DNA of 64,000 nucleotides from Luteitalea sp. TBR-22. Lineage in GTDB: Bacteria; Acidobacteriota; Vicinamibacteria; Vicinamibacterales; Vicinamibacteraceae. The notes beneath the pieces were generated by a model. It did no database searches. It had not been told where the DNA came from and worked only from the letters and a program-made list of their open reading frames with translations. A program made the translations under genes and the position numbers. Positions 22,987 through 59,232 of this stretch are shown piece after piece (the first letter of the stretch is position 1; each line of letters starts with the position of its first letter). The stretch is from positions 1,944,501-2,008,500 of the forward strand of contig NZ_AP024452.1 in the NCBI RefSeq assembly GCF_016865485.1. The letters run 5' to 3'.

Positions 22987-23035
22987 GTCAAACGTTTGAC
23001 GTTTGACGTTTGACATCGAACTCGGACGCTGGACG
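22987..23035 (+). repeat. Heptamer tandem array, GTTTGAC type
   Basis: Seven consecutive 7-bp units: gtcaaac, gtttgac three times, then atcgaac, tcggacg, ctggacg. It lies between the divergent amidohydrolase and retropepsin-like genes. Confidence 0.7.
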
Positions 23036-31713: not shown

Positions 31714-31743
31714 CTACGAGTGCGTCACGGTCGCGATGCCCTC

Positions 31744-31785
31744 ACTCCCGATTCCCGACTCCCGATTCCCGACTCCCGCCTCCCG
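31744..31785 (+). repeat. Heptamer tandem array, (A/C)NTCCCG type
   Basis: Six units: actcccg, attcccg, actcccg, attcccg, actcccg, cctcccg. The array touches the start codon of the MFS gene. Confidence 0.75.
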
Positions 31786-33033
31786 ATGCCCTACAGACAC
31801 CGCGTCCTCGGCCTGCTGTTCCTCCTGTCGATGGTCACGTACCTCGACCGCGTGTGCATCGCGGTCGCCGGCCCCGAGATGCAGAAGGATCTCGGGCTGT
31901 CGCCGTCGCAGTGGGGCTGGGTCGTCGGCATCTTCGCGCTCTCGTATGCGCTGTTCGAGATTCCGTCCGGCGCGCTCGGGGACCGGATCGGCCCGCGCAA
32001 GGTCCTGACGCGCATCGTGTTGTGGTGGTCCGCGTTCACGAGCGCCACCGGCCTGGTGTCGAACTACTACGTGCTGCTCGCCACGCGCTTCGCCTTCGGC
32101 ATGGGCGAGGCCGGCGCCTATCCGAACGCCTCGTCAGCCATCTCGCGCTGGTTCCCGCTGGCCGAGCGGGCGCGGGCGCACGGCACGGTGTGGATGGCCA
32201 GCCGTGTCGGCGGGGCGCTCACGCCGCTGCTCGTGGTGCCCATCGTGCAGGCGTGGGGGTGGCGGAGCGCCTTCTACATCTTCGGCCTGATCGGCGTCGC
32301 GTGGGCGGCGGCCTGGTACTGGTGGTACCGCGATTACCCGACGGAGATGCCGGGCGTGACGACCGAGGAACTGGCGCACATCGGCGAGTCGTCGAGCCGG
32401 CGGGCGCACCACTCCCTGCCGTGGGCCCAGGTCGTCAAGAGCCGCAACTTCTGGATCATCCTGCTCATGTACCACGCGTACTGCTGGGGCTCGTACTTCT
32501 ACGTGTCGTGGATGCCGACGTACCTGCGGCTCGGGCGCGGGTTCACGGCCGACGAGATGAAGATCTACGCGATGCTGCCGTTCGTGGCCGGCGCAGTCGG
32601 CAACCTGACCGGCGGATCGATCAGTGACATCCTGGTCCGTCGCTTCGGCTTGCGCAACGGTCGTCGCTTCGTGGCGGCCGCCGGGCTCGCCGCCTCGGCG
32701 CTCTGCCTCTTCGGCACGGCCGTCGTCGAGAACCGCCTGCTGGCCGTGGCGCTGCTGACGATGGGGTACTTCAGCATGGACTGCATGCTGCCGGTGTCGT
32801 GGGCGGTGTGCGTGGACGTGGGCAGGCGGCACGCCGGGGCCGTGACCGGCGCCATGAACTCGGCCGGTCAGATCGGCTCGTTCCTGTCGTCGATCGCGTT
32901 CGGCGCGCTCGTGGACGCCTTCGGTGGGCGCTACGACGTCCCCTTGATGCTCTTCAGCGGCGCGCTGCTGCTCGCGGCCTTGCTGTTCCTGGCCATCGAC
33001 GCGTCGACGCCCCTTGTCGACGAGGTCGCCTGA
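31786..33033 (+). CDS. MFS transporter, anion:cation symporter (ACS) type
   Basis: A 415-residue protein with 12 hydrophobic helices. 'MVTYLDRVCIAVAGPEMQKDLGLSPSQWGWVVGIFALSYALFEIP' (in part) and 'GALGDRIGPRKVLT' are the ACS-family signature in the first two helices and loop 2-3; 'RFAFGMGEAGAYPNASSAISRWFP' is the family's helix-4 motif. ACS members import hexuronates, galactonate, glucarate and similar organic anions. The start ATG follows a heptamer array directly, with no clear ribosome site. Two bases separate it from the next gene. Substrate not determinable. Confidence 0.9.
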   Translation: MPYRHRVLGLLFLLSMVTYLDRVCIAVAGPEMQKDLGLSPSQWGWVVGIFALSYALFEIPSGALGDRIGPRKVLTRIVLWWSAFTSATGLVSNYYVLLATRFAFGMGEAGAYPNASSAISRWFPLAERARAHGTVWMASRVGGALTPLLVVPIVQAWGWRSAFYIFGLIGVAWAAAWYWWYRDYPTEMPGVTTEELAHIGESSSRRAHHSLPWAQVVKSRNFWIILLMYHAYCWGSYFYVSWMPTYLRLGRGFTADEMKIYAMLPFVAGAVGNLTGGSISDILVRRFGLRNGRRFVAAAGLAASALCLFGTAVVENRLLAVALLTMGYFSMDCMLPVSWAVCVDVGRRHAGAVTGAMNSAGQIGSFLSSIAFGALVDAFGGRYDVPLMLFSGALLLAALLFLAIDASTPLVDEVA

Positions 33034-34001: not shown

Positions 34002-34427
34002 GTGCCCGATCTCGCGACTCGTGCCGACATCGACGTCCTGCTCCGGCGGTTCTACTCGCGGGCGATGGCCGACGACCTGATCGGCTACCTGTTCACCGAG
34101 GTCGCCCATCTCGACCTCGACCATCACCTGCCCCGGATCGGAAATTTCTGGGAGCAGCTCCTCTTCCAGCGTCCCGTCTACGTGGGGCAGCCCATCGCCG
34201 TCCACTTCCCGCTGCACGAAGCCGCGACGCTGCAGCCGGCGCACTTCCAGCGCTGGTGGCGGCTGTGGGACGAGAGCATCGCCTCGCTGTTCGAGGGGCC
34301 GATGGCCGATCAGGCGCGCACCCGTGCCGCGACCATCTCGGAGTCCATGCAATACCGGCTGGGCATCGAGAGCGACCCGGCGCTGTTCTCGGGCGCCTAC
34401 AAGGCGGCGTTGGGGATGGAACCGTGA
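34002..34427 (+). CDS. Group III truncated hemoglobin
   Basis: A 141-residue protein from GTG 34002. 'IDVLLRRFYSRAMADDLIGYLFTEV' and 'LDHHLPRIGNFWEQLLFQRPVYVGQP' followed by 'HFPLHEAATLQPAHFQRWWRLWDESIASLFEGPMADQARTRA' (in pieces) is the group III trHb pattern. The proximal heme His is in 'AHFQRWW', and the conserved Trp of group III is present. Proposed roles in the family are NO or peroxide chemistry. A heptamer array starts one base after its stop codon. Confidence 0.9.
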   Translation: MPDLATRADIDVLLRRFYSRAMADDLIGYLFTEVAHLDLDHHLPRIGNFWEQLLFQRPVYVGQPIAVHFPLHEAATLQPAHFQRWWRLWDESIASLFEGPMADQARTRAATISESMQYRLGIESDPALFSGAYKAALGMEP

Positions 34428-34428
34428 C

Positions 34429-34547
34429 GTTTAACGTTTAACGTTTAACGTTTAACGGCTAACGGCTAACGTTTAACGGCTAACGGCTAACGGCTAACGG
34501 CTAACGGCTAACGGTTAACGGCTGACGCCTGACGCCTGCCGGTTGCC
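34429..34547 (+). repeat. Heptamer tandem array, 17 units, GTTTAAC to GGCTAAC
   Basis: Seventeen unbroken 7-bp units: four gtttaac, two ggctaac, one gtttaac, five ggctaac, then ggttaac, ggctgac, gcctgac, gcctgcc, ggttgcc. Variation is confined mostly to positions 2, 3 and 5. It begins just after the stop of the hemoglobin gene. Confidence 0.9.
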
Positions 34548-34568
34548 GAAAGGGAAGGGTGACAGGGG

Positions 34569-34610
34569 GACGACCGACCAAGGACCAAGGCCGAATGACG
34601 AAGGCCGACG
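34569..34610 (+). repeat. Heptamer tandem array, GACCAAG type
   Basis: Six units: gacgacc, gaccaag, gaccaag, gccgaat, gacgaag, gccgacg. It lies 21 bases after the 17-unit array, between convergent genes. Confidence 0.65.
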
Positions 34611-34623
34611 ACCGCTCGGCACG

Positions 34624-34662
34624 CAAAAAGGGGCGCCCTGCGCGTATGCAGGGGCGCCCCTT
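34624..34662 (-). terminator. Rho-independent terminator of the cupredoxin gene
   Basis: On the minus strand GGGGCGCCC...GGGCGCCCC forms a strong stem around a CTGCATACGCGCAG centre, followed by TTTTTGCG. It lies 24 bases downstream of the cupredoxin stop. Confidence 0.75.
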
Positions 34663-34685: not shown

Positions 34686-35198
34686 CTACTCGACGATCAG
34701 CTGGCCCACCATGCCGCCCTGGAAGTGCGCCGGGAACGTGCAGATGAACGTGTACTTGCCGGCCGCCGGCGCCGTGAACTCGACGCTGACGGTCTCGCCG
34801 CCGCCCGCGAGCGCGGTGTGGGCGATGATCTGGGCATTGGACTTCGGCGAGATGAAGTTGGTGTCGCGCGCGGTGGCGCCTGCCGTGGCCACGGCGGCGG
34901 CGTCGGCGCCCGCCTTGAGCAGCACGAAGTTGTGCGCCATGGCGATCTTGGGCATCGCGCTGACGGCCTTGAGGGTGACCTTCACCTTGTCGCCCGCCTT
35001 CACGCGGATGACCGACGGCGTGAAGCGCATGTTGTCGGAGCCGGTCAGGGTGAACGTCTTGACGGCGCCGGCAGCGGCCTTGGGAGCGGCCTTGGGAGCC
35101 GCCTTCGGGGCGGCCTTGGTCGTCTGGGCGAGGGCAAGCGCGGGGGACAGCGTCAGCGCAACGGTGCACAGCGCGGCGCACAGAGAGTGACGGGTCAT
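34686..35198 (-). CDS. Secreted plastocyanin/azurin-like cupredoxin
   Basis: A 170-residue protein with a signal peptide (MTRHSLCAALCTVALTLSPALALA) and an Ala/Lys/Pro-rich linker, 'KAAPKAAPKAAPKAAAG'. The cupredoxin domain starts at 'VKTFTLTGSDNMRFTPSVIRVKAGD'. Copper ligands are visible: His in 'MAHNFVLL', Cys in 'FICTFP', His in 'PAHFQGG' and Met in 'GGMVG', the type 1 set C-x3-H-x3-4-M. It probably carries electrons in the periplasm. The frame opens far upstream, but ATG 35198 gives the signal peptide. Confidence 0.9.
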   Translation of the reverse strand: MTRHSLCAALCTVALTLSPALALAQTTKAAPKAAPKAAPKAAAGAVKTFTLTGSDNMRFTPSVIRVKAGDKVKVTLKAVSAMPKIAMAHNFVLLKAGADAAAVATAGATARDTNFISPKSNAQIIAHTALAGGGETVSVEFTAPAAGKYTFICTFPAHFQGGMVGQLIVE

Positions 35199-40272: not shown

Positions 40273-40328
40273 TAACGCCGAACGCCGAACGCCGAACGCC
40301 GATTGCCGACTGCCGACTGCCGACTGCC
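40273..40328 (+). repeat. Heptamer tandem array, GAACGCC/GACTGCC type
   Basis: Eight units: taacgcc, three gaacgcc, gattgcc, three gactgcc. It lies between the divergent OYE-type and hmgA genes. Confidence 0.8.
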
Positions 40329-40390
40329 GTCCAAGGTGACACGTCCCGTCGACCTGTGGTTACCTGAGGCTGGCACCCGAGGATGCTTCC

Positions 40391-59096: not shown

Positions 59097-59159
59097 CACG
59101 GGAGGGAGCGCCGCGTGTCAAGGGATCAGGGACACGGGGGCGAGTCACAAGGGTTGCGT

Positions 59160-59232
59160 GGGACGAGGGGCAAGGTGCGGTAGGGACGAGGGACAAGGGA
59201 GGGACAACGGAGGGACAAGGGACAAGGGAGGG
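59160..59232 (+). repeat. Heptamer tandem array, GGGACAA type
   Basis: Units include gggacga, ggggcaa, gggacga, gggacaa, gggaggg, gggacaa repeated, partly out of phase. It lies between the dehydratase and the response regulator gene. Confidence 0.6.

Follow-up and report, generated by a model that had tools for sequence, protein, structure and literature searches.

The window, by which we mean the whole stretch of 64,000 nucleotides analyzed here, derives from a closed genome of 6.47 Mb (labelled G000) and carries at 34002..34427 on the plus strand a gene for a group III truncated haemoglobin (PDB 2ig3, E 6.1e-8), in agreement with the initial annotation, which had spoken of a hemoglobin gene from the letters alone; no Pfam family matched its product at E ≤ 0.001. 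An array of about 17 heptamers (34427..34548, plus strand), identified by direct reading, period-7 scoring and a lag-7 test, runs out of the globin gene after its stop. Read from position 34429, its units are GTTTAAC (four copies), GGCTAAC (two), GTTTAAC, GGCTAAC (five) and then the degenerate GGTTAAC, GGCTGAC, GCCTGAC, GCCTGCC and GGTTGCC, 17 in total. The 5′ end of the array is the last base of the TGA stop codon, which itself stands in register: TGACGTT, stop codon included, lines up with TAACGTT. At a lag of 7, 102 of 115 positions match, and none of 5000 shuffles scored as high at any lag from 4 to 12, which confirms the drifting 17-unit run described earlier at this place.

The second run with another unit, which had been reported 21 bases further on, is present as well but weaker. 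It was found by direct reading at 34569..34610 (plus strand), 21 bases past 34547, with the units GACGACC, GACCAAG, GACCAAG, GCCGAAT, GACGAAG and GCCGACG; 21 of 30 positions match at lag 7 between 34574 and 34610 (no equal among 5000 shuffles at any lag from 4 to 12), and its score lies below the threshold applied to arrays elsewhere in the analysis. On the far side of the gap lies a convergent gene of the plastocyanin/azurin family (34686..35198, minus strand; PF00127, E 3e-17), and an A-tract with an inverted repeat (GGGGCGCCCTGC...GCAGGGGCGCCCC), read from the sequence at 34625..34660 on the minus strand, looks like an intrinsic terminator of this azurin-like gene. The claim that the unit length is kept at exactly 7 holds inside the array; it is not absolute, because exact unit copies just outside arrays are often out of phase (15 of 21 in G000 and 31 of 41 in G001, a genome of the same genus; copies in phase are absorbed into the array and do not enter these counts).

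The globin array is accompanied by others in the window. Directly 5′ of the start codon at 31786 of an MFS gene lies a heptamer array (31746..31785, minus strand), the outward strand of which (CGGGAGT type) is antisense to the gene. A mechanical open reading frame from the GTG at 31720 would translate this array; a start at 31786 is more likely, and a start called inside the array region represents an annotation hazard. Two arrays are located between divergent genes, namely one of ACGTTTG (22992..23014, plus strand, 3.3 copies, 44 bp from the left gene) and one composed of AACGCCG (four copies), ATTGCCG and ACTGCCG (three copies) at 40274..40329, which has no single strand, its halves facing each other by the polarity of their types. 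A short AGGGACA run between two plus-strand genes (59211..59229, no strand assigned) reaches a score of 12, the usual threshold being 13; it belongs to a stretch of mixed repeats (59147-59232) with periods of 7, 11, 22 and 29, made of AGGGACA and AAGGGAC words.

The initial annotation had named a genome-wide scan for period 7 as the test on which its reading should stand or fall, and the excess is clear. In a contiguous 464-kb block of G000, period 7 gave exact runs with 14 or more matches at 29 places; with multiples of 7 set aside, no other period between 2 and 30 gave more than 2 such places, and one second-order random copy of the 464 kb contained none at period 7. Patterns at 14, 21 and 28 bp are present in the block, and from the earlier suggestion of slippage or length-conserving copying it stands that these patterns are compatible with slippage or unequal exchange in steps of 7 bp. 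Across 844 kb (the block plus 19 spaced stretches), 68 of 75 period-7 arrays are intergenic and 7 are coding; among the other periods tested (4 to 15, multiples of 7 excluded), none exceeds 3 intergenic arrays. The bias is shared by G001 (133 intergenic and 4 coding arrays in 400 kb, other periods at most 5) and by G087, which has 51% GC and belongs to a different family within the phylum (82 intergenic arrays in 380 kb; 18 at period 8, 10 at period 9 and at most 4 for the rest not multiples of 7), and 150 kb of E. coli K-12 yielded zero arrays at any period from 4 to 15. Arrays are carried by 56 of 450 gaps in G000 and by 80 of 230 gaps in the 400-kb sample of G001. In 20-kb samples of 17 relatives, period 7 was the commonest in seven (G002, G004, G005, G006, G008, G012 and G087) and tied in one, two samples were spoiled by N, and seven held no array; the trait is therefore not shared by the whole order.

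In total, we sampled 1.2 Mb of the 6.47 Mb of G000, 0.8 Mb of G001 and 0.38 Mb of G087. Since they overlap with the contiguous block, stretch L013 was left out of the 844-kb count and stretches L012, L013 and L014 out of later counts, and false matches caused by N runs in L137 and L148 were ignored in the sampling of relatives. Genes were called with our own codon-usage caller, which made 42 calls on one 50-kb stretch of E. coli and thereby recovered 41 of the 46 stops annotated there, a benchmark that refers to E. coli only; start codons are uncertain.

From this we conclude that the globin array is one of a genome-wide class of intergenic period-7 arrays, which have many different unit sequences and mostly start at gene borders. 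The STRR of heterocystous cyanobacteria are seven-base tandem units in intergenic DNA, and the likeness to them that was noted at the outset is borne out by an array of that kind in a genome whose period-7 excess is strong and specific and in which exact seven-base tandem units are intergenic and spread genome-wide. Three findings described below go beyond the initial annotation, namely that the arrays are tied to gene borders, that their polarity is fixed and that different loci use the same units.

Identical unit types recur at unrelated loci. The 93 intergenic arrays of G000 are built from only 28 major units, compared to 84 if 7-mers are chosen randomly from intergenic DNA (minimum 74 in 1000 draws), and the 183 intergenic arrays of G001 from 55 (null 156, minimum 140). 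The sets of units vary by lineage: three consecutive GGCGTTC units were found in 2 of 297 genomes of the phylum, both genus members included, and three GGGARTC units in 5 of 119 genomes, G001 not among them. The GGGAGTC/GGGAATC units of G000 give 417 overlapping triple-unit matches in the genome, and the units of G087 are GGGTTCR, GTGGTTA and GTAGTCA. A reversed control pattern (CTRAGGG repeats) matched 34 times in G087 and 5 times in G098; G087 contains TTTAGGG/TTCAGGG arrays, units of a type that resembles the plant-type telomere heptamers.

Next to the units, the position of the arrays is biased. The median distance from array to stop codon is 10.5 nt in G000 compared to 33 nt for random placement (G001: 22 versus 57), and start codons exert no pull (63.5 versus 57 nt in G000, 126 versus 92 nt in G001). 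The number of gaps with arrays per kb is 0.96 for convergent, 0.46 for tandem and 0.61 for divergent gaps in G000, and 1.93, 1.01 and 0.70, respectively, in G001. If only gaps of 25-99 bp are considered, the excess between convergent genes reaches significance in G001 (6/23 versus 2/49, p 0.011) and not in G000 (7/58 versus 10/169, p 0.15).

Close to stop codons, the strand of a unit type is virtually fixed. A reference strand was given by majority vote to 18 types in G000 and 30 in G001. Up to 30 nt from a stop, 39 of 40 arrays in G000 and 40 of 40 in G001 follow the strand taken by the majority of their type, which none of 5000 permutations reached; these counts cover the types seen at least twice there, i.e. 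40 of 49 and 40 of 58 arrays. The same measure is weaker for all other arrays (27/32, p 0.004 in G000; 75/102, p 0.03 in G001). Near starts, the same types are mostly antisense to the gene, with ratios of 14 to 4 (G000) and 10 to 0 (G001) within 60 nt in divergent gaps and of 6 to 1 and 16 to 3 for arrays in tandem gaps that are nearer to the start; in this comparison the near-stop arrays define the reference and only the remaining ones are independent. Deeper in the gaps the polarity is weaker or absent, and arrays in tandem gaps beyond 30 nt yet nearer to the stop are sense and antisense in 1 and 2 cases (G000) and in 9 and 9 cases (G001). A fixed strand at stops together with a mostly opposite strand at starts means that, at either end of a gene, the arrays are directed outward.

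This outward polarity was recovered in several ways. With leave-one-out scoring, which we applied in the tests of the 5′ end and of G-richness, the 5′ end of the array is nearer to its border in 63 of 74 arrays in G000 and 101 of 123 in G001, the remainder of the 93 and 183 arrays dropping out as types with a single border member. Neighboring arrays within one gap face each other in 21 pairs, face away in 2 and have the same direction in 23. Six types have border arrays in both G000 and G001, and in all six the majority polarity agrees between the two, a single array being the exception; G087 shows 59 concordant versus 3 discordant pairs near borders, i.e. the same polarity despite other units. 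The rule is visible in the window itself, in which the array at 34427 points outward after a stop, the one at 31746-31785 is antisense directly before a start codon and the one at 40274-40329, between divergent genes, consists of two types that face each other. That this polarity is largely independent of the letters may indicate a common role or process connected with the borders of genes.

Some arrays begin within the stop codon, and seeding by stop codons or by a GTAG signal was considered and dropped, because an enrichment of TAG is confined to G000 (26/53 versus 189/577, p 0.02; G001: 22/62 versus 113/355, p 0.56). A role of the units as backup stops in all frames is not general either, since many units contain no stop.

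Arrays are retained in syntenic gaps while their units change. Of 50 gaps shared by G000 and G001 (syntenic pairs with a median protein identity of 74%; 53 of 103 conserved neighbor pairs were dropped because their gaps were below 25 bp), 10 carry an array in both genomes, 4 in G000 alone, 8 in G001 alone and 28 in neither (Fisher p 0.0019). After stratification by gap length without arrays, the 10 gaps with both arrays still compare to 5.2 expected (permutation p 0.002). An exact unit is common to both genomes in only 1 of these 10 gaps, and one further syntenic pair differs by a single base (TGAGCCC, TGAGACC). Array presence is thus kept above chance while the unit changes. The globin locus follows this pattern: the arrays of G000 (TAACGTT/TAACGGC), G001 (GAACGCC/GAACGTC) and G004 (degenerate, AAGGGAC-like) each lie directly 3′ of the gene. 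In the G001 ortholog (stretch L028), the reading frame continues three codons into the array before stopping, so that the array provides the stop codon and three extra codons. In G002, the transporter and azurin-like genes were found by blastn with no globin between them, and no array is visible at this place.

Several known repeats are comparable. In the portions of Rehm et al. 2015 (PMC4692102) considered here, GGGAATC and GGGGA(T/C)T repeats are described as lying with their 5′ side close to an ORF in any orientation, this polarity is reported for repeats of quadruplex type in Xanthomonas and Nostoc, oligonucleotides folded as quadruplexes in vitro, many GGGNATC repeats (83%) were kept in place between two species, and a role of heptamer repeats could not be identified. 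According to these portions, the arrays studied here share with the GGGNATC repeats the period of 7, the dispersed intergenic location, drifting units, the outward polarity and, in G000, even GGGAATC/GGGAGTC units; their 5′ ends likewise lie close to an ORF in either orientation. They differ, on the same basis, in that the repeats of Rehm et al. have one unit type per lineage and a quadruplex explanation, whereas we find 18 and 30 types, many without G-runs, and mostly different units in orthologous gaps; a G-run in every unit is not found in the globin array (GTTTAAC, GGCTAAC). The TAACTGA direct repeats of Beggiatoaceae and others, as described in the portions used of MacGregor 2015 (PMC4679880), are likewise intergenic heptamers spread over the genome. 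There, a single unit is favored, related heptamers are seldom repeated and most repeats lie just 5′ of start codons; unlike these, our arrays have 28 and 55 major units and are mostly located behind stops. Longer-unit repeats are over-represented intergenically in some genomes (Mrazek and Huang 2014, PMC4060949), in an account of long simple sequence repeats which, in the part drawn on here, does not deal with polarity at gene borders. A search of titles and abstract openings, with most subscription journals outside its range, returned no paper on heptamer arrays in Acidobacteriota among those listed, and a word search of the main text of PMC12699852 found neither "hepta" nor "acidobacteri". 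The arrays described here widen the polarity rule to many units without G-runs, the globin array included.

As a tentative reading, which seems to us quite possible rather than probable, the arrays could be one-way boundary elements built by 7-bp slippage. They would grow and change through slippage or unequal exchange in 7-bp steps, and the strand read outward would act as a one-way boundary, most likely by aiding the end of transcription leaving the gene. Such a role would be useful at stop codons and could cause arrays to be retained at gene borders. In sense upstream of a start, the same strand would block entry, and therefore mainly the antisense orientation would survive; the unit would be free to drift, since the presence of an array would matter more than its exact sequence. 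Sites resembling intrinsic terminators are fewer at gene ends with arrays (7/105 versus 105/760, Fisher p 0.04), a deficit that may simply reflect the space taken up by the array, and most gene ends have no detected terminator, with or without arrays. Taken together, the polarity at both borders, the convergent excess, the terminator deficit and the retention of arrays with changing units favor a one-way transcript boundary, which gives no account of the step of 7. Against it stand the weaker or absent polarity deeper in the gaps, a G-richness of the outward strand that G001 does not share, the confinement of the significant short-gap convergent excess to G001 and the folding of the outward strands. 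Asymmetry of RNA folding, a further candidate, was set aside as weak: the outward strand folds more stably than the inward one in 59 of 95 and less stably in 35 cases (p 0.017), the outward strands have no common fold, and AACGCCG, a leading type, goes the opposite way.

The arrays might instead be neutral heptanucleotide microsatellites, which arise by slippage in free intergenic DNA with some replication bias for 7 and which selection merely excludes from genes and promoters. The paucity of arrays in coding DNA, the multi-unit block patterns and the avoidance of the sides of start codons fit this explanation, as does the over-representation of heptamers in many bacterial genomes that surveys found according to the portions of Rehm et al. 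2015 (PMC4692102) used here. It predicts neither the fixed strand at gene borders nor the units common to unrelated loci (28 major units in 93 arrays, null 84) nor the retention of arrays in syntenic gaps. In these three respects, the arrays go beyond ordinary microsatellites, and we regard a neutral origin as possible but rather doubtful.

A more far-reaching reading would be a hitherto unrecognized border system in bacteria of several phyla, in which a process or reader that is indifferent to sequence and measures seven nucleotides would set down and maintain arrays pointing away from gene borders; position, step and polarity would then be conserved, and the letters would be free to change. 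We consider this to be unlikely.

That the arrays stem from a mobile or REP-like element, dispersed by insertion at gene ends and equipped with heptamer arms, appears decidedly improbable. Unit types are indeed common to many loci, GTAG palindromes are frequent (93 in 864 kb of G000 and 187 in 800 kb of G001, compared to 5 in 150 kb of E. coli), 15 of 20 relatives have Y1 transposase domains, and some loci of G000 have a common core between inverted GGCTCA arms. However, inverted partners of the same unit are not clearly more common in the same gap than in other gaps (same gap versus other gaps: 5.6% versus 3.7% in G000, 9.5% versus 10.1% in G001, score 14), among the matches listed most arrays of one type have flanks without apparent relationship, and the many unit types misfit one element. 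Hairpins formed by inverted arms of the same unit were rejected as a candidate, as their enrichment is not clear. The GTAG-headed palindromes of G000 and G001, e.g. GTAGCCGTCGACCTTCAGGTCGACGG, are REP-like, and the GGCTCA-armed core, which was seen at several loci (L008, L019 and the contiguous block; about GAGAGCATTCAG ... GAATGCCTTC), looks like a dispersed palindromic element.

G-quadruplexes formed by G-rich outward strands and acting on transcription, as proposed for the GGGNATC repeats, are in our view very unlikely to account for the class. GGGAGTC/GGGAATC are among the units of G000, and the outward strand holds more G than C in G000 (58 versus 14) and G087 (59 versus 0), but G-richness as the cause of polarity fails in G001, which lacks the bias (68 versus 61). 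Moreover, units without G-runs (GTTTAAC, GGCTAAC, GAACGCC, GTCTCAG) follow the same polarity, for which reason we reject quadruplexes as the general cause; the period and the border polarity across many unrelated units, at about 70% and at 51% GC, argue in the same direction.

A telomerase-like enzyme that adds heptamers to 3′ ends at intergenic breaks would yield the observed geometry, with arrays that extend outward from either side of the break. Its traces could be seen in the pairs within one gap (21 facing, 2 facing away, 23 in the same direction), in the TTTAGGG/TTCAGGG-like units of G087 and in the 5′ register of the arrays, which is biased in G000 as well as in G001 (entropy 1.64 and 1.84; every one of 2000 uniform draws was higher). 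The 3′ register is likewise biased in G001, which led us to drop a fixed 5′ register with a free 3′ register, and growth from one tip was rejected because a homogeneity gradient along the arrays is absent (p 0.73 in G000, 0.49 in G001). Furthermore, no PF00078 reverse transcriptase match was found in the array-rich G000 or G001, Ku is absent from the array-rich G087 and hence is not required for arrays, and many unit types would demand many templates. Templated addition is therefore highly improbable. Finally, a hypervariable locus for phase variation of the haemoglobin gene, which the many-copy tandem repeats adjoining the gene might suggest, is extremely unlikely, given that the array lies 3′ of the stops of two convergent genes, outside reading frame and promoter, and that such arrays occur genome-wide. 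The initial annotation had considered that the locus could be hypervariable; between G000 and G001, gaps keep the presence of an array more often than expected by chance.

Heptamer repeats have long been noted in bacteria, with no agreed role. If the arrays described here are one-way boundary elements, a large share of the gaps in such genomes would contain a class of elements that gene annotation ignores.
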